This document shows, in pieces, positions 19,296 through 59,510 of a stretch of DNA of 60,875 bases (position 1 is its first letter; the number at the start of each line of letters is the position of its first letter). Made by a program: the position numbers and the translations under genes. Under the pieces are notes generated by a model. It had not been told where the DNA came from and ran no database searches. It was given only the letters and a program-made list of their open reading frames with translations. This stretch comes from Planctomycetota bacterium (GTDB lineage Bacteria > Planctomycetota > Phycisphaerae > Sedimentisphaerales > Anaerobacaceae), in contig JACNGQ010000372.1 of the NCBI GenBank assembly GCA_014384025.1, positions 1 to 60,875 of the forward strand, given 5' to 3'.

Positions 19296-20687
19296 CTATC
19301 GGACGACTACGCATTTCACCTGCATCTGGTCTCTTATCAGCAGCTTACCATCGGAAAGTGCCATCGGTCCCCAGTTTTGGGTTGCACCTCCAACTCTTAA
19401 AGCTATACCTTCACTGTTTGTTCCTGCTTCTCCAAGTAACTCTGCTGATGCAAGTTGCTTAAATCCAGATGGATCAGGCTCTATAAGATACAAAGCCTTC
19501 CTACCGTCGGTAGCCAGAATCAGGCCATCGGCCAGAATCATGCTGCCTTTATTAAAATCAGGTGAACGTCTTGTTGTCCACATGATCTGACCATCCATGC
19601 TCATACACACCAGGCCGTCACGCCGATTATTGGTTCCGTACTGAGCATAGAAATATCCGTTATGTAATATCGGCGGTTTTGTTTGATCGCCAAATTCTTC
19701 GGTTGTAAAAAGTTCTGTTGTGCCGTAGCTGCCATCTGCCTTTTTTTCGACCTTTATCATAGTTGCGCCGAGTTCGTATCCACCAACAACAAGCACTTTG
19801 TTGTCACCGGCATCAACAGCACTCGGTACCGAAATGTGACAATTCCACTTATCATATTCCCAAAGGATTTTTCCCGTAAGGGGTTCTATTCCAACAACAT
19901 TACCCAGAGTTTGAGGCAATTCTCGATTTCCAATAGGATTAGTAGATGAAATAACCATTACAACATGGTCTTTTCCGTCTATTTTCACAACTGAAGGACT
20001 GGCATATGATTCATTGCCAAGATTGGGCGTTTTCCAAACAATATCGCCTGTGAGTTTACCATAAGCAACCACACCCGCCTAAGGCGCCTGCGATGCCAGA
20101 ATAAGCAAATCGCCGTAAATCAAAGGGCACTGAGTAATGGCCCATATCGGAAATCCACCGGGTCCACGTCCAAATCCCCTCGATGAGCTGCTTGCGGGTT
20201 TTCCGCCAAAATCCGTCCAAACATTCTTATTCCAGACGGGCTTGTGTGTGTTTATGTCTATGCAATAAACATCGCCGTTATGACCGCATGAATAAACTTT
20301 ATTACCTTCCACAATCGGTACACTTCGCGAGCCGGGAAACATAGCAGATCCGGGAGCATCATAGGCAAAATTCCAGAGTTCTTTACCATTGGAAAGGTCA
20401 AAACACCGAAGATTATCACCTACCTTATCATCCCTGTCGAGCAAATATACCTTACCGTCTTTGATTACGGGTCCGCCAAATCCTCTTCCAACAGAAATAT
20501 TCCATAGAACTTCCGGCCCATTCTCAGGCCAGGTGCGCAGAAGCCCTTTTTCCGGCGAGATTGCGTTTCTATCAGGCCCGAGATACTGTGGCCAATCCGC
20601 GGCCAGCGCGGCACAAGTCAGTGCTAACGTGATGATGATCGTCCGGCATTTCAGTGAGATTCCATACTTCTCTTCGTTCCAATACAT
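19296..20687 (-). pseudogene. PQQ-type beta-propeller interrupted by an in-frame TAG
   Basis: The minus-strand frame from ATG (20687) runs 202 codons to a TAG at 20081-20079. It continues in the same frame for 260 more codons to a natural end, KCVVVR. The intact relative at 51977-53290 aligns through the break: ILASQTDRAGIVAY there, ILASQAP-stop-AGVVAY here. One base change has therefore stopped an otherwise whole 463-codon gene. Its start has a signal peptide ending ALAADWPQY and a GGAGG ribosome-binding site. Propeller strand motifs (GELW, GKILWEYD, YLIEPD) are well kept on both sides. It may be a recent pseudogene, a sequence error or a readthrough site. lepA ends in TAG, so recoding of TAG genome-wide is not supported. 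Confidence 0.8.
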
Positions 20688-30620: not shown

Positions 30621-33600
30621 TTACCAATTGCCGCTGGCAACCTTCTGTTGAATCTGCTCATGGCCGATACAAAGCACCCGGCCATCGATCAGACTCAAAA
30701 TTACCCTGCCATTGCGATCAACAGCCATACCCCATGGCACTGGAGCAGATGGAAGCGTTTGACTCCAGAGCGGCTCGCCGTTACGAAGATTGATCGCAGT
30801 AACTTTCGATTTATCAGCTACCACAACGGCGTTCGTTGTCAGGGCAACAGCAATGCTCTCAGCGCAGATATACTGCCATAGAGGTTTCTCAGAAACTTTG
30901 AATTCTCCCCATGCCTGTGTTATATGCCTCGGGATTTTTTCGTCCGTAACACACCGGCTCAATACGCCCTTGTCCAGCGGCTCGTAACAAAGCAGCCTGC
31001 TGTTGTCTATCCAGACTACGTCACGCCGACCGGTTGAAGCATGCAGCAGCTTTTTCGTCACCGTGTGGTCATACACCGGGATTTCAGGACGCGTGTAGAG
31101 CGGGCTCCCGCAGGCAATAACTCTATCGCCTACAAGGAAAAGCTCCCAGCCGCGTGGAGTGGTTGACTCTGTATTGGCCAGAGGGGCGGCATCATTAAGG
31201 CACCGTCCGTCATCGATATCATAGACCGCAGGTGAAACGGCATTCCCCCCGGCAAGATAGAGCTTATTCTCGTGGAGCAGCAGATGCCCTTGAACGCTAA
31301 CCCCTGTGTTAGCTTTAGCGTCCAAATGTCCGGATGTATCGTTGCACCATCGAACACTTCCGGTAGCCGGATCGAGAGCATATACATAGGTCCCATCGTA
31401 GTTCACCAGACCGGCAGCGACATAAGCTGTCCCATCTTCCACAAGAACACCGCTCGCCGCCGGCCAGGTCGAGAGGATTTTGCCGTAAACAGGGATATTG
31501 CGTTCGGCTGGTGCGGCCCGAAAACGCCAAAGCAGCCGGCCAGTGGCCGCCTCAAAGGAGTACACCCAGCCGTCACCCGAACCTACCAGCACACGATCAT
31601 TCCATATGGTCGGGGCAATGCGAATCTCTCCACCGGTGAAGACCTTCCATTGCTCACGTCCTGTGTCACTGTCCAGGGCACGGACAATTCCGTCCGAACC
31701 GGCCAGCAGGACAAGACCACCGGCCGTCACAGGAGCTGTAAGACTAACACTACTCAGAGCAGACGACTTTGTCAGCCAAAGTTGGCCGCTGGTTTCAGGA
31801 ACGACCGCCCTGCTCGTCGCGGTTCGCTGGTTGTTTGCCCTGAATGTGGGCCAGTCGGCATCAGATACACTCAGGCTCTGAACCGGTTTGATTTTGCCGG
31901 CTCCCTTTTCGAATCGAGTCGACCAGGAGCTTTTTGGAGTGAAATCGAAGTCACCCGCCGAGCCAAGGCAGGTAAAACCATTCAGAGTAAGCTGGCAGTC
32001 ACAGGCAAAAGGCCACCAGTAAAGAAGACCATTAGCTACCGTCACCCCATCGTGACAGGGAGGACGCATTGGTGACAGCCATCGTGGACGAGCACTGGCC
32101 AGATCGAAACGAACCGTTCCTCCCATAGCCCGGAATAAGAGACTGTCTGAAGTAGCTGTTGGGCGGGTACACGCCCGCCGACCCGTAGGAAGCTCCGCAA
32201 GAACCTCTCCTGTCAGTGGGTCAAACTTTTTGCTGAAGTTGTTACCCCACGGACCACTAATTGCATACAAGGCCTCGGGATAAATGACCAGTTGAAAGTT
32301 GTCATATGGGTGCTGCCATAGTATCCGGCCGTCTTCGGTGGAAACGGCCAGCAGTTTTCCCAACTGCGGCCCGGCAAAATACAGAACGCTGTCACTACAT
32401 TTCAAATAAACAGTTGTCCGCCAGTTCGTTTGCCAGCTCTGACGGGGAAGGTACTCACCGAGCGTCTCGAACAACTCAGGCGCGTTGTCCTTTGTCTTGC
32501 GCCATAGAACTCGTCCCGTTCGTGAATCGAGGCAGGTCAAATAGGTCCCAAACTGAAAGGCAAAAATCCGCCCGTTCTTCATGCAGACGGCACGGCCATC
32601 CATTGGCTCATTTTCGCGGTAGTGCCATAAAACTTTCTTTGTCTCAGGATCGATGGCTAAGAGGTTACGACCAAATCCCCAGGGCTGTTCGGACTGGTTA
32701 TAGCCCTTTGATATACCTTCCCAGGGCCAGCCGTGGGCCTGACGTTTCCACCGCATCGTTTCGTCCTTCTGTTCGGCTTCTCCGATCAGAGCGTAGAGGA
32801 CACCATCTTCCAGCGCCATCCACTTCCAGAACGTGCCTCCCGCCATGCTCACCGGTGGAATGATCTCGCCTTTTGTCTCACCCGAGACGGCATCGATAAG
32901 TTTGCAGGACTTGTCGTCACCTAAGAAGAGCGTTTCCGGCGTGGCGATCATCGTATTTCGGTGAACCATCAGGCCTTCAGGCAAGGGTCTTTTCCAGAGT
33001 ATCGTACCGTTGAATGCGTTGAACGCAGCCAGCGTATTCAGAAAAGCTTCCTCACGCTCGTGCCAGGCAACATGACCGAAGGCTTTGAACAGGCGGCCGC
33101 CGGCAGTGACTGCCAATTGCGGCGCAGGGCCATAACGAGGGTCAGCGAGAAACTGTGTCATATATGGCGCACGAATAAGGCTGTCCTGCGAAAGCGGATT
33201 GTTGTCCGGGCCATGATAAGGATGGCTCCAGTCGTCCAGCCCTTCCGGAAAAGGTTTGCTTAAAACTTCCCGTCCTATTAATGCTTTTCCTTCCGGTCGA
33301 AGTACCCGCAATACCTCGGCCTGTGGAACACGCCTTGCCCCGCCCACTGCAACTACGGCATCGGCAATATTGTCGGCCAGATGTAATTTCTTCAGCGCCC
33401 CCTTACCCACAAAGATGCGTGTACCATAGAAACCCGCATCATCGGCTATCTTGCGTGCCTTTTCCACACCTTCTGCTTGTGGTAACTGCATATATATCAG
33501 AAGCTCGCTTTCACGCACGAGTTTCAGCGCAAGCTCACAGGATGAATCACCAAGCAACACACAGATTCCGCGATCAGCTCCGATGCGCTTGAGAATCGGA

Positions 33601-33677
33601 TTTTGCTGATTGGCCGCAAAGGTCAGGGAATTAATGACCAGCAGGCTGATAATTGCTGTCAAGAGGCATCGCTTCAT
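30621..33677 (-). CDS. Secreted fusion: degenerate methyltransferase fold plus two PQQ-type propellers
   Basis: 1018 residues, signal peptide cut near TFAAN. Residues ~25-130 form a Rossmann methyltransferase-like domain whose SAM motif is worn down: LDLGCGDG of the relative at 54723 is VLLGDSSC here. The companion stretch AGFYGTRIFVGKG still aligns with the relative. Propeller B (~145-590) begins DDWSHPYHGPDN and propeller A (~605-1018) begins DADWPTFRANNQRT. The protein at 54723-57887 has the same three modules in the order A, methyltransferase, B. The ribosome-binding site AGGAGG is strong. It sits between nitrilase and phosphatase genes on the same strand. The role is unknown; cofactor or polymer binding outside the cytoplasm is possible. 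Confidence 0.85.
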   Translation of the reverse strand: MKRCLLTAIISLLVINSLTFAANQQNPILKRIGADRGICVLLGDSSCELALKLVRESELLIYMQLPQAEGVEKARKIADDAGFYGTRIFVGKGALKKLHLADNIADAVVAVGGARRVPQAEVLRVLRPEGKALIGREVLSKPFPEGLDDWSHPYHGPDNNPLSQDSLIRAPYMTQFLADPRYGPAPQLAVTAGGRLFKAFGHVAWHEREEAFLNTLAAFNAFNGTILWKRPLPEGLMVHRNTMIATPETLFLGDDKSCKLIDAVSGETKGEIIPPVSMAGGTFWKWMALEDGVLYALIGEAEQKDETMRWKRQAHGWPWEGISKGYNQSEQPWGFGRNLLAIDPETKKVLWHYRENEPMDGRAVCMKNGRIFAFQFGTYLTCLDSRTGRVLWRKTKDNAPELFETLGEYLPRQSWQTNWRTTVYLKCSDSVLYFAGPQLGKLLAVSTEDGRILWQHPYDNFQLVIYPEALYAISGPWGNNFSKKFDPLTGEVLAELPTGRRACTRPTATSDSLLFRAMGGTVRFDLASARPRWLSPMRPPCHDGVTVANGLLYWWPFACDCQLTLNGFTCLGSAGDFDFTPKSSWSTRFEKGAGKIKPVQSLSVSDADWPTFRANNQRTATSRAVVPETSGQLWLTKSSALSSVSLTAPVTAGGLVLLAGSDGIVRALDSDTGREQWKVFTGGEIRIAPTIWNDRVLVGSGDGWVYSFEAATGRLLWRFRAAPAERNIPVYGKILSTWPAASGVLVEDGTAYVAAGLVNYDGTYVYALDPATGSVRWCNDTSGHLDAKANTGVSVQGHLLLHENKLYLAGGNAVSPAVYDIDDGRCLNDAAPLANTESTTPRGWELFLVGDRVIACGSPLYTRPEIPVYDHTVTKKLLHASTGRRDVVWIDNSRLLCYEPLDKGVLSRCVTDEKIPRHITQAWGEFKVSEKPLWQYICAESIAVALTTNAVVVADKSKVTAINLRNGEPLWSQTLPSAPVPWGMAVDRNGRVILSLIDGRVLCIGHEQIQQKVASGNW

Positions 33678-54152: not shown

Positions 54153-54722
54153 GGTTTAGTATATACGTAGGCCAGACCCCTCGACTGCGCTCGGGGTGAC
54201 AAAGAATGAAGATTGCCGCCCCCGACAGAAAGTCAAGTTAGCTCACATCGAGGGTAAACTCAACGGCCTCCTCGCAATGACAACTGTTTTAAACAGAATC
54301 ATTCCTAATGTCAGGTTAAACAGCTACTTATTCTGCTATACATGCTTTGGGCTATCTGCCCTGCACAAGTTAAATTTTCAAATTGTCGCAAATGGGAGCT
54401 ACAATCTTAGCAAATAATCTTACAACTATTGTTACAGCTGTTGTACATAGTCATCCGCCCCTCAACATTCTTGGCCGTTCTTTTTTTGCATCAGATTCTC
54501 GTTTTTTATGGAATCACTATTACCACTTCAGGAAAATCAGAAGTTGTTTACGAGTTGTCATACATAAGCGTCTGTTTCGAGCTTCATAAAGATTCATGAC
54601 AGAGAAGCTTAGCTCACAATCCCTAAGCTTGAGCTGTGTTATTCTTGACTTCTCAGAAGATCAGATTTAAAATAAACACTTTGGGGAAAAGATTTTGCTT
54701 TGGACAAGTACGAAAGACTAAT
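54153..54722. other. Intergenic region with REP-like hairpins
   Basis: GACCCCTCGACTGCGCTCGG and what follows at 54175-54200 forms a CCCC(T)CGA/(C)TCGGGG hairpin, a dispersed repeat common in bacterial genomes. CGGCCTCCTCGCAATGACA at 54264-54282 is another common repeat sequence. A small palindrome, CTGTTTTAAACAG, lies at 54284-54296. From 54300 to 54722 I see no gene or clear promoter. Confidence 0.5.
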
Positions 54723-57700
54723 ATGAACAGAACAATTTTTATAGCGATCGTTTGGCTGCTACTTGTTGTCGATGTACAGGCTTCTGACTGGCCAACGTAT
54801 CGAGCAGATTCCGCACGAAGCAGTTACACGTCAGAACAACTGCCCAAAGGGCTTATGCTGTGGTGGAGCTACCAATCGCCGCACGCGCCGACACCTGCAT
54901 GGCCGACACGCAATCGCCAGCAGTTCGATCGTGCCTATCAGCCGGTGATTGCCGGCGGTGTGCTCTATTATGGCAGTTCGGCCGATTGCAAGGTGTACGC
55001 TTTGGACGCAGTCACGGGCAAGACACGTTGGACATTCTTCACCGATAGCCCGGTGCGTTTCGCACCGGTTGTTTGGCAAGATCGTCTATTCGTGGCAAGC
55101 GACGACGGCCACCTGTACTGCCTTGTCGCAACAGACGGTCAGCTTCATTGGAAGTTGCGCGGTGGGCCGAAAATCGACATGCTCTTGGGTAACGACCGGA
55201 TGATTTCACGCTGGCCAGCGCGTGGGGGGCCGGTAGTAGTCGACAACATACTCTACTTCGGTGCCGGCATTTGGCCGACCGAGGGGATTTTCATCTACGC
55301 GATCGACCCGGCCAGCGGCAAGGTGCTCTGGTGCAACGACTCGTCGGGAGGGATCGAGATGGATCAACCTCATCCGACCGCCCGGGCCAAAAGCGGCATC
55401 GCCGCCCAGGGATATCTGGCCGCGTGTGGCAACTCACTGTTTATTCCAACCGGTCGAGCTGTGCCAGCAGTATTCGATCGAACCGACGGCAAGCTTAACT
55501 ATTTCCGTCTCCAGCAAAACCAATATGTTGGGGGTTCGGATGTGGTGGCTGTTGATGATCATTTCTTCAATGGTGGTGAGATATTCGTCGCAAGTAACGG
55601 TGTTAGACAGGACCACATCGGCGTTCAGATCGCCATGCATCCTGATTTTGTTATTTCATCGAGAGAGAATAAAATCATCGCCTTCGACCGACGAAAGCTG
55701 CTGGTTGACAAAGAGGTAACCGACCGCAAGGGTAATAAGCAGATCGTCAAAGCTCTTGCCCCATCGGTGTGGAGCATTGATCTTCCACCTGGCGCCTTGG
55801 CGCCGCCGGCCACTCACAAGGGAGCCAAACCACCTAGGGGCGACCTTATGGGGGGAACGGCCTGGAGCCGCCCGCTTTTATTTGACGCGTCAAGTGCAAT
55901 GATCGTAGCTGGTGACAATGTCATTTCCGCCGGGGAGAGCAAGGTATTGCTTCTTGACATCCGCTCGCGCGAAGTGGTGTGGGATGCCGAGGTGGACGGA
56001 ACTGTCTACGGTTTGGCAGTGGCTGACGGCCGGCTTTATGTGAGTACGAATCTGGGGATGATCTATTGCTTTGGAGGCGGGGCTGGGAGTCCAGGAGTCC
56101 GGGAAGCCAAAAGTACGAAGCCGCCAACGGTTGAGAATCCGGTTTACGTAACAGCGGTCGAAGAGATTATTCAACGAACCGGTGTCACCGAAGGATACTG
56201 CCTTGATCTGGGCTGCGGAGATGGCCTATTAGCGCTCGAATTGGCCCGTCGTACGAAGCTTCAAATCTATTGTGTTGAGAAGGACCCGGCCAAGGTCCAA
56301 GCCGCCAGGCAGTTGTTCGACTCGGCAGCACTCTATGGCGTGCGAGTGACAGTCCATCAGGCCGATCCAACTAAGGTTCCATATCCGAATTACTTCGCCG
56401 ACTTGGTCGTGTCAGGCCGGTCGGTCACTGAAGGGCCAAGAGTAGTTTCCACCGAAGAAGTGCAGCGTATGCAGTGCCCATCTGGCGGAATTGCATGCTT
56501 TGGCTGCCCGGGTTCCATGCAGCAATTTACTCGCCCTCCAATGGATGGTGTCGGAAATTGGACACATCAGAACACCGACGCCGCTAACACGCTCTGCTCC
56601 AATGATACTTTGGTTCATGGCCCACTGAAGATGCTCTGGTTCCGCGACACTGATTTTGTAATGCCCAACCGCCATAATCGCGGGCCGGCACCGCTTGTTG
56701 ACAAGGGACGTATGTTTGTCGAGGGCCTAAACGCACTTCGGGCAACGAATATCTACAATGGACGAACGCTGTGGGAGTTACCGCTCGAAGGTATCCTCTT
56801 GCCGTATCACAGGGGTGAATCCAGCATAGGGGTTGCCTGGACCGGTAGTAACTTCTGCATAGGCGACAATCGAGTCTATGTGCACTCCAGAGACAAATGT
56901 CTCTGTCTCGACGTGAAGACCGGGCGGAAAACTGCCGAACTGAAGCCACCTCCACTCCCCAACGGAAAGCCAGGAAAGTGGGGATATATCGCCTGTAAGG
57001 AAGGGACGCTGTTCGGCACGTTAGTTAATGAGAAATACATAGTCAAGGGGTGGGCTTCCAAGTGGGATACCAGCGATCAGTTCACCGAGTCAGAGCTGTT
57101 TTTCGCGATGGAAGCCCGAACAGGGAAACTCAAGTGGACTTTTGAGCCGGAACATTCCATTCGCCACAATACCATTGCAATCGGCGGGGGATGCGTGTAT
57201 CTAATCGACCGGCCGCATGCGCCGGCAGATGAGTCGTTCGATACAGCCGGAGGTAAGAATGAAGCAAAACGGCAAGCTGCTGCGAGCGGAGAAAGCGAAG
57301 AAGAGGAATACCTCCGATTAAGAGAACACCCTACCGGCCGTTTACTTGCTTTAGACTTGGAAACCGGCGAGGTCTTGTGGAATAACAGCGATGACATATT
57401 CGGAACGATGTTGGCTTTCAGCACAAAGCACAACGTGCTACTGATGAGCTACCAGCCTGTCCATCAAGCATCACGGCTATCCGAGAGGGGTGATCGAATG
57501 GCTGGCATACGTTCGAGCGATGGGACACGATTGTGGGATGTCAGGGCCGAGTATGAATCCCGGCCAATCCTTAACGACCGGACCATCTATGCCCAACCCG
57601 GAGCGTGGGACCTATTGAGCGGTGAAAAATTGCCATTTACCTTTACAAGATCATACGGTTGTGGCATCCCGGTCGGCTCGAATAGGATGTTGGTGTTCCG

Positions 57701-57887
57701 TTCCGCCACGCTTGGCTATTTTGATTTAACTGGGACCTACCGCACAGAAAACTACGGCGGCATCCGACCGGGCTGCTGGATCAACACCATTCCGGCCGGG
57801 GGGCTGATATTGATGGCCGACGCCGCCAGTTGGTGCACCTGCAGCTATCTGAACCAGGCGACGTGCGCATTGCAGCCGGTCGAATGA
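54723..57887 (+). CDS. Secreted fusion: PQQ-type propeller, SAM methyltransferase domain, second propeller
   Basis: 1054 residues from the ATG at 54723; the frame is open 29 codons further up without a signal sequence. Signal peptide ends VQASDW. Propeller A (~20-455) opens SDWPTYRADSARSS. A class I methyltransferase domain (~470-590) with motif I LDLGCGDG (~495), an acidic CVEKDP after beta-2 and VRVTVHQADPTKVPYP looks SAM-competent. Propeller B (~600-1054) opens GNWTHQNTDAANT. The protein at 30621-33677 has the same modules in the order methyltransferase, B, A. The signal peptide puts a SAM-type domain outside the cytoplasm, where SAM is not expected, so a non-SAM ligand is possible. First gene of a three-gene unit. 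Confidence 0.88.
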   Translation: MNRTIFIAIVWLLLVVDVQASDWPTYRADSARSSYTSEQLPKGLMLWWSYQSPHAPTPAWPTRNRQQFDRAYQPVIAGGVLYYGSSADCKVYALDAVTGKTRWTFFTDSPVRFAPVVWQDRLFVASDDGHLYCLVATDGQLHWKLRGGPKIDMLLGNDRMISRWPARGGPVVVDNILYFGAGIWPTEGIFIYAIDPASGKVLWCNDSSGGIEMDQPHPTARAKSGIAAQGYLAACGNSLFIPTGRAVPAVFDRTDGKLNYFRLQQNQYVGGSDVVAVDDHFFNGGEIFVASNGVRQDHIGVQIAMHPDFVISSRENKIIAFDRRKLLVDKEVTDRKGNKQIVKALAPSVWSIDLPPGALAPPATHKGAKPPRGDLMGGTAWSRPLLFDASSAMIVAGDNVISAGESKVLLLDIRSREVVWDAEVDGTVYGLAVADGRLYVSTNLGMIYCFGGGAGSPGVREAKSTKPPTVENPVYVTAVEEIIQRTGVTEGYCLDLGCGDGLLALELARRTKLQIYCVEKDPAKVQAARQLFDSAALYGVRVTVHQADPTKVPYPNYFADLVVSGRSVTEGPRVVSTEEVQRMQCPSGGIACFGCPGSMQQFTRPPMDGVGNWTHQNTDAANTLCSNDTLVHGPLKMLWFRDTDFVMPNRHNRGPAPLVDKGRMFVEGLNALRATNIYNGRTLWELPLEGILLPYHRGESSIGVAWTGSNFCIGDNRVYVHSRDKCLCLDVKTGRKTAELKPPPLPNGKPGKWGYIACKEGTLFGTLVNEKYIVKGWASKWDTSDQFTESELFFAMEARTGKLKWTFEPEHSIRHNTIAIGGGCVYLIDRPHAPADESFDTAGGKNEAKRQAAASGESEEEEYLRLREHPTGRLLALDLETGEVLWNNSDDIFGTMLAFSTKHNVLLMSYQPVHQASRLSERGDRMAGIRSSDGTRLWDVRAEYESRPILNDRTIYAQPGAWDLLSGEKLPFTFTRSYGCGIPVGSNRMLVFRSATLGYFDLTGTYRTENYGGIRPGCWINTIPAGGLILMADAASWCTCSYLNQATCALQPVE

Positions 57888-57923: not shown

Positions 57924-59510
57924 ATGTATCGAGAAGTGAATCAACGCAAGTTCTCAAAAGCAACGTTGGCAAGGCTGGGTTCCGTTATGCTTCTGTTGGT
58001 TTTCGCAGCACCCCATTTCACGGCAATCGCCGAGGAGGTGACGTATTCCAAACTGTGGGGACGCAACGGCGAACTCTGGTCGCCGACCAGCCGTCTGCCC
58101 GATTTTTCCTATGCCGGTTATAGCCGGGGTGAACACCCCCTGCGGGAGCTCAAAGCCGATGTTAGTGTTAAACAATTTGGTGCCATTGGCGATGGTGAAA
58201 CGGACGATACACATGCCTTCAAGAAAGCCATTGAACAATCACCGGGCAAGACGATCTTCGTTCCGGCCGGCCGGTATCGCATCACCGATTTTCTCTACAT
58301 CCGCCATAATGGCACGTCCCTGCTCGGCGAAAGCCCTGTGAGATCCATTCTGTTCTTTCCAACGCCTCTGCACACGATCAAGCCTAACATGGGAGCCACA
58401 ACCTCCGGCCAGCCCACTTCCAATTACTCGTGGTCCGGCGGATTCGTCTTCGTTACGGGCTCATCATCGCAGGATGTGTTGGCCGAAGTGACCTCTCAGA
58501 CCAAGCGAGGGCAGCGGTCGCTGTCCATCTCAAAGCCCGAGGCATTCACAGTTGGGCAAGACGTGCGATTGAGCTTGCGGGATACCGAGCGGCAGAGTCT
58601 GGCGAAGTATCTCTACGCCGACGATCCGGGTCCGATCACAAACCTCAAGTCGCGTGCCCAGGTATCTTTCCTGTGTCGTATAACTAAAATAGATACGGCA
58701 GGCAAGCAAATAGAATTCGATCGCCCCCTGCGGTCGGACGTTCGGCTGGAGTGGAGACCTCGTTTGTATGATGCATCCTGCAGCGTCGAGGACGTCGGTA
58801 TCCAAAACCTCTGCTTCGAGTTCCCGGTGACACCGTACAAAGGGCACTTTACGGAACTCGGTTACAACGCCATTGCGATGCGCAGCGTTAGGAACTGCTG
58901 GGTCCGGAACATCAGGATTCACAACGCCGACAGCGGTATGTTTATCTCGGGCAACAACATTACCCTTCGCGAGATATCACTGACATCCGAGCGCCCCAGG
59001 GAACGGCAGCGCAAAGCGACGGGTCATCACGGCATCACAATCGGAGGCCAGGACAACCTGCTGGACAACTTTCAATTCGAAACCCGCTTCATGCACGATA
59101 TTACCGTCACCAGCGGATCGGCGGGCAACGTCGCTGCTTCCGGCCGCGGTGTGGACATCTGCTTCGACCATCACTGCTATGCTCCTCACGCAAACCTTTT
59201 CACCGATATCGACCTCGGCGAAGGCTCACGAATGTTCCAATCAGGCGGCGGTGCAGCGCTCGGTCGCCATTCAGCCAGTTGGGAAACGTTCTGGTGCATT
59301 CGGGCCCAGCACGCCCAGAAATGGCCCGACGGATGGGGGCCGGATCTGATGAATTTTATTGCCGTTCAGCCCGGACAAGAGTCCGTCACCGATACCGACG
59401 GACGGTGGTTTGAGGCCATTGAACCGGCGCGTTTGCACCCGCGCAATCTCTATGAATCCCAGATTCGGCGCCGCCTCCAGAGTAGAGTTTTCTCTCAACG
59501 AAATCATTAA
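57924..59510 (+). CDS. Secreted pectate-lyase-like right-handed beta-helix protein
   Basis: 528 residues, signal peptide (~1-37) cut near AIAEE. The Pectate_lyase_3-type N-terminus has VKQFGAIGDGETDDTHAFKKA (~85-105) and VPAGRYRI. Repeating beta-helix coils follow through ~440 (VEDVGIQNLCF, VRNIRIHNADSGMFIS, LLDNFQFETRF). Such folds serve as polysaccharide lyases, GH28-type hydrolases or epimerases; I see no clear family-specific catalytic set. AAGGA precedes the ATG, 36 bp after the propeller-methyltransferase stop; the next gene follows 20 bp later. Higher in GC than the left half of the window. Confidence 0.85.
   Translation: MYREVNQRKFSKATLARLGSVMLLLVFAAPHFTAIAEEVTYSKLWGRNGELWSPTSRLPDFSYAGYSRGEHPLRELKADVSVKQFGAIGDGETDDTHAFKKAIEQSPGKTIFVPAGRYRITDFLYIRHNGTSLLGESPVRSILFFPTPLHTIKPNMGATTSGQPTSNYSWSGGFVFVTGSSSQDVLAEVTSQTKRGQRSLSISKPEAFTVGQDVRLSLRDTERQSLAKYLYADDPGPITNLKSRAQVSFLCRITKIDTAGKQIEFDRPLRSDVRLEWRPRLYDASCSVEDVGIQNLCFEFPVTPYKGHFTELGYNAIAMRSVRNCWVRNIRIHNADSGMFISGNNITLREISLTSERPRERQRKATGHHGITIGGQDNLLDNFQFETRFMHDITVTSGSAGNVAASGRGVDICFDHHCYAPHANLFTDIDLGEGSRMFQSGGGAALGRHSASWETFWCIRAQHAQKWPDGWGPDLMNFIAVQPGQESVTDTDGRWFEAIEPARLHPRNLYESQIRRRLQSRVFSQRNH

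Follow-up and report, generated by a model that had tools for sequence, protein, structure and literature searches.

The window analysed here, a stretch of 60,875 nucleotides of planctomycete DNA, encodes two putatively exported proteins that, judged from their sequences, are built of the same three modules, each homologous to its counterpart and not interchangeable with the others, in rotated order. Two propellers (A and B) and a methyltransferase-like domain (M) are arranged as A-M-B in one protein and as M-B-A in the other. Instead of the rare and odd pair described in the initial annotation, they represent two phylum-wide subfamilies, parted by a single ancient change of order, of a large and apparently undescribed family of exported planctomycete proteins. 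A and the unit of M and B (MB) are probably obligate partners of an exported complex, which can be joined in either order, and the order most likely changed via fission into two exported genes followed by fusion in the other order. The modules themselves are known folds. Neither their combined architecture nor its two orders nor the split genes were found described in the open-access literature searched, and in this respect they are new, in line with the earlier proposal of an undescribed architecture. Both open reading frames are present where they had been annotated and have the lengths reported; the A-M-B frame extends upstream without a stop as far as a GTG at 54636. The features are as follows.

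54723-57887, plus strand: A-M-B protein, 1054 amino acids, ATG start, stop codon included in the coordinates
54723-54782, plus strand: signal-peptide-like N-terminus of A-M-B (MNRTIFIAIVWLLLVVDVQA), judged from the sequence, a model helix at residues 2-19, and the family-wide occurrence of this trait
54783-56102, plus strand: propeller A of A-M-B, residues 21-460, PQQ_2/BamB-like repeats
56130-56534, plus strand: M domain of A-M-B, residues 470-604, truncated class I methyltransferase-like, DLGCGDG retained
56535-57884, plus strand: propeller B of A-M-B, residues 605-1054
57660-57842, plus strand: cysteine quartet of B in A-M-B (C980, C1018, C1038, C1040)
57924-59510, plus strand: next gene after A-M-B (gap of 37 bp), encoding a pectate-lyase-like beta-helix protein that weakly matches the hyaluronate lyase family BT_3328
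30621-33677, minus strand: M-B-A protein, 1018 amino acids, stop codon included in the coordinates
33615-33677, minus strand: signal-peptide-like N-terminus of M-B-A (MKRCLLTAIISLLVINSLTFA), judged from the sequence
33249-33614, minus strand: M domain of M-B-A, residues 22-143, degenerate SAM motif VLLGDSSCEL, placed by alignment
31902-33248, minus strand: propeller B of M-B-A, residues 144-592
31995-32171, minus strand: cysteine quartet of B in M-B-A (C503, C541, C559, C561)
30648-31859, minus strand: propeller A of M-B-A, residues 607-1010

The rotated order proved to be real, and the modules are homologous one to one. In BLASTP comparisons, residues 16-455 of A-M-B align with residues 602-1005 of M-B-A (A-A block; 28% identity, E 2e-43), and residues 482-1048 align with residues 28-570 (MB-MB block; 25% identity, E 3e-27). 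Each of these alignments is colinear, and thus the breakpoints fall at the module boundaries. Compared module by module, the counterparts scored 157 bits (A1-A2), 54.7 bits (M1-M2), and 59.7 bits (B1-B2). The best cross match between modules (A1-B2) reached 32.0 bits and was about level with shuffled A1 sequences (n=100; maximum 31.2 bits), which dispels the concern that A and B might be interchangeable copies. The likeness of WCNDSSG and WCNDTSG in A is also genuine. The MRWKRQ/SKWDT region of B aligns less well than most of the module and with gaps. The AlphaFold2 model of A-M-B (pLDDT 69, pTM 0.66) predicts a propeller at residues ~22-462, an alpha/beta domain at ~470-604, and a second propeller at ~605-1054. 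The model of M-B-A is poor (pLDDT 58) and of no use for superposition; the order alpha/beta, beta-rich, beta-rich is discernible in this prediction, and a double propeller is only hinted at in its Foldseek list. Pfam detects PQQ_2 repeats in both proteins and a methyltransferase domain in A-M-B only.

The family is sizeable. Counting only loci with detectable A and M, 23 planctomycete genomes or records yielded 145 non-redundant fusions, 69 of them A-M-B and 76 M-B-A; no third order occurs among them, and none contains two A or two M modules. Eight fusions of each order are found in the genome from which the window derives, which has about twenty family members in all. Of 293 planctomycete genomes sampled, 46 encode an A domain with an E value of 1e-70 or below. 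At this threshold, the best six A-type domains per genome were found exclusively in fusion-length frames, beside MB neighbours, or in frames cut by contig ends, and plasmid records yielded nothing beyond generic propeller matches to A. A scan of genome contigs with weak patterns returned four loci, all from Planctomycetota. Orthologues of both window proteins, at up to 85% and 92% identity, were identified in further genomes, and most multi-copy genomes, including the single-contig genomes G036 and G052, hold both orders together. A hydrophobic N-terminal export stretch is present in 65 of 69 A-M-B and 72 of 73 M-B-A members and directly precedes the first module, be this A or M. Copy numbers can be high, with one 5.3 Mb genome (G007) giving over 20 A-type matches. 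In this genome (L148, L151) and in G029 (L064, L072), two to four M-B-A genes stand in tandem, and both orders lie side by side at L024:112-7800, where a frameshifted M-B-A gene just precedes an A-M-B gene on the same strand. A short subclass of 950-990 amino acids (L029, L127, L128, L129, L134) has a reduced A and a B of which the end alone is recognisable, and it is still ordered A-M-B.

Phylogenies of the two units are consistent with one change of order. The order changes once in the M-B tree (104 units; branch support 100) and once in the separately built A tree (99 units; branch support 99). Within each order the two trees are closely correlated (r 0.89 and 0.93; at most 0.22 and 0.16 in permutations), which indicates that the A and MB partners travelled together. 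Taken with the single change, this means that both orders were passed on unchanged and duplicated repeatedly. Set against outgroups taken from the same genome, the family forms one clade for B (support 99) and for A (80-100) against free propellers, and its M domains form one clade against other methyltransferases (96). A survey of planctomycete genomes for module pairs had been suggested as a way to learn which order is older. The trees disagree on this point: M-B-A is paraphyletic in the A outgroup trees, A-M-B is paraphyletic in one M tree, and AU tests reject neither root arrangement (p-AU 0.26 and 0.48).

The rotation had initially been taken as a sign of a closed assembly of A and B with M between them. 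However, M without B behind it was never met in intact members of normal length. Since M and B are never separated, only two movable units exist, A and MB, whose two possible orders are automatically rotations of each other; nothing further about a ring can thus be read from the rotation. A true ring would be required for the remaining rotation, B-A-M, which does not occur among the 145 members. The linker between A and M usually comprises 19-34 residues but is extended to 78-359 residues in 18 of 70 A-M-B members, and at L056 and L063 it contains a LamG domain (elsewhere LamG precedes A, in L051 and L076, or lies inside A, in L035). At eight loci, moreover, A and MB are encoded by two adjacent genes on the same strand, with A first at L055, L214, L215, L216, and L219 and MB first at L124, L217, and L221; L215 and L217 are from single-contig genomes. 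In nearly all of these cases both subunits have putative signal peptides, judged from their N-termini. Split genes in either order and linkers that hold LamG make a closed ring unnecessary, and the closed three-module ring was rejected. The linker from B to A is 21-45 amino acids long in 76 of 77 M-B-A members, a steady length that would also fit some structural constraint.

In the mechanism proposed here, the partner units would be A and MB, the latter consisting of a truncated M always directly before a B with a four-cysteine motif. They would work together either in one chain (A-MB or MB-A) or as products of two neighbouring genes, with order and covalent linkage being free, and A would presumably bind MB. 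The two subfamilies would have diverged by the single ancient change of order and then multiplied side by side in Planctomycetota. Fission and fusion, rather than tandem duplication, are likely to have made the switch. The known split loci all fall on the A-M-B side of the tree, and thus none is a direct intermediate between A-M-B and M-B-A. Two of them with MB first (L124 and L217) join the fused, A-first L056 (A-LamG-M-B) with support 99 in both trees; gene order and linkage therefore changed again in that clade.

A variant of this explanation that differs in history only starts from an ancestral operon of two genes that fused twice independently, giving one order each time, so that the fused states were never one chain before. 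It is possible, although we consider it somewhat doubtful. Split operons in both orders would agree with it, as would AU tests that reject neither placement of the deep root (p-AU 0.26 and 0.48) and the M-B tree. In this tree the split loci share one clade (99) with two fused A-M-B proteins, and the A-M-B side begins with three branches in unsupported order, of which this clade is one. In the A tree, however, the split genes are nested within A-M-B (19-row clade, 98), and the splits found thus look derived. A true circular permutation by tandem duplication appears unlikely. Here a head-to-tail doubling of A-M-B would have been pared down to M-B-A, or M-B-A to A-M-B in the same way, with A, M, and B forming one closed assembly. 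The two orders are strict rotations separated by one switch, and paralogues do occur in tandem (four M-B-A genes at L148, two at L064, and M-B-A by A-M-B at L024), but no intermediate with duplicated modules was found in 145 members, which makes this route less likely than fission and fusion. The absence of B-A-M, the capacity of the A-M linker to house LamG, and the split genes in both orders, for which a closed chain is needless, also argue against it.

Propeller B carries four cysteines (C, RxxC, CxC) whose conservation is 96-100% across 104 aligned members from both subfamilies. The strict pattern is matched by 61 of 70 A-M-B and 68 of 77 M-B-A proteins of the full set and by none of the free propellers fetched from the same genome. 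That the quartet and M form a novel cofactor or metal site, and that the family would represent an undescribed class of exported enzymes acting on polysaccharides with substrate-specialised paralogues, seems improbable.

The M domain aligns with class I SAM-dependent methyltransferases (3DLC, Methyltransf_25/11) and resembles them in sequence and in the predicted fold of beta strands 1-5. It differs in that its secondary structure, in a predicted model based on a shallow alignment, ends after beta 5 without beta 6-7, with B starting at once, and in being exported, always joined to propeller B, and mostly degenerate in the SAM loop. In A-M-B of the window, M exceeds the curated Pfam cut-off for Methyltransf_25 (40.8 bits, cut-off 27) and retains an intact DLGCGDG. 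In M-B-A, GDSSC is found in its place, no methyltransferase family was detected by Pfam at E 0.01, and the domain is tied to M of A-M-B by direct comparison alone (the 54.7 bits given above). Across the family, a simple pattern search found a GxGxG-like SAM loop in 42 of 147 members (21 of 70 A-M-B and 21 of 77 M-B-A). From its sequence and predicted fold, M thus has the appearance of a methyltransferase core that is truncated and mostly non-catalytic, and it most likely is a retired core that caps propeller B or docks to it; the methyltransferase fold would here be deprived of its enzyme role. It is very unlikely that M is an active exported methyltransferase whose substrate is presented by the propellers. 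The intact motif and the Pfam score of A-M-B would suit such a function, as would an exported lipoprotein-type methyltransferase with a canonical motif that adjoins an M-B-A gene in the same genome (L032:8885-9625). However, the motif is confined to the minority of members mentioned, the predicted M stops short of beta 6-7, and the family proteins are exported. We know of no source of S-adenosylmethionine outside the cytoplasm, and this was counted against an active M. The gene at L032:8885-9625, which sits 60 bp behind the M-B-A gene, and L172:1255-2037 encode class I methyltransferases that start with a signal of lipoprotein type and have the canonical GSGPG motif and the full C-terminal half; an exported methyltransferase is odd per se. 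Finally, chance similarity or misassembly can be dismissed: PQQ propellers are repetitive and readily cross-match and the window is from a draft genome, but the modules match one to one (E 2e-43 and 3e-27), both proteins have orthologues elsewhere (up to 85% and 92% identity), and both orders occur in the single-contig genomes G036 and G052.

Gene neighbourhoods, whose comparison had been suggested at the outset, revealed no fixed partner, only small and varied neighbour clusters. The nitrilase gene beside M-B-A of the window recurs in its closest orthologue (L106) and is the only recurring neighbour, and the pectate-lyase-like gene beside A-M-B is absent next to the A-M-B orthologues compared. 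Sulfatases account for 4 of 123 neighbours, about twice a background of ~1.6% (86 matches in a 6.7 Mb genome, gene number estimated from its size). With clusters this varied and a sulfatase excess this unconvincing, reading a function off the neighbours was rejected. The family could, tentatively, bind or handle extracellular glycans. This role is suggested by the export signals, by accessory LamG, malectin, CBM9, and PKD domains in the family, and by the glycan-degrading surroundings in the window (sulfatase, heparinase-like, GH20, rhamnosidase-like, and lyase-like genes). Free propeller genes are also encountered in the vicinity of fusions. In G029, a gene for a single PQQ_2 propeller lies directly upstream of a fusion on the same strand in two cases, one per order (L163:4060-5337 and L066:7381-8703). 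In the window, a PQQ_2 propeller gene on the minus strand (19296-20687; start DWPQYLGPDRNAIS) is split into two open reading frames by an in-frame TAG at ~20079-20081, which may reflect a pseudogene, a sequencing error, or readthrough.

Among known proteins, the closest counterparts of the propellers are the eight-bladed PQQ-repeat propellers BamB and YxaL, which share fold and repeat with A and the type of repeat with B. A is an eight-bladed propeller of this BamB/YxaL type, its AlphaFold2 model matching the solved structures of YxaL (VIA Z 32.1) and BamB (Z ~29). The VIA list is taken up by matches to propeller A and is uninformative on M. Unlike BamB, A is always paired with MB, the window proteins score 59.3 and 83.9 bits against a cut-off of 285.2 for TIGR03300 (assembly_YfgL), and no BAM context was seen around the family genes. 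PQQ-dependent alcohol dehydrogenases and the 'acido-empty-quinoprotein' TIGR04528 have PQQ repeat propellers and export in common with the family. The window proteins differ from them by two propellers plus an alpha/beta domain and by scores of about one eighth of the curated cut-offs or less (48.5 and 60.4 bits for the PQQ-dependent dehydrogenase family TIGR03075, cut-off 480). The closest parallel in the arrangement of units is found in the nicotinamide nucleotide transhydrogenases, a textbook case of permutation by fission and fusion (PMC3320104). Although these proteins are unrelated to the A/MB family, they too have units that occur either on individual subunits or joined in one chain, with the order permuted. 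In contrast to the transhydrogenases, the A/MB family has both orders as paralogues in one genome, and its split genes occur in both gene orders. One family thus exhibits all states predicted by the fission-fusion model, fused in either order and split in both gene orders, and the two fused orders coexist as many paralogues in the same cells. This makes the family a clean natural case of reshuffled protein parts and provides a natural series for testing whether domain order affects function.
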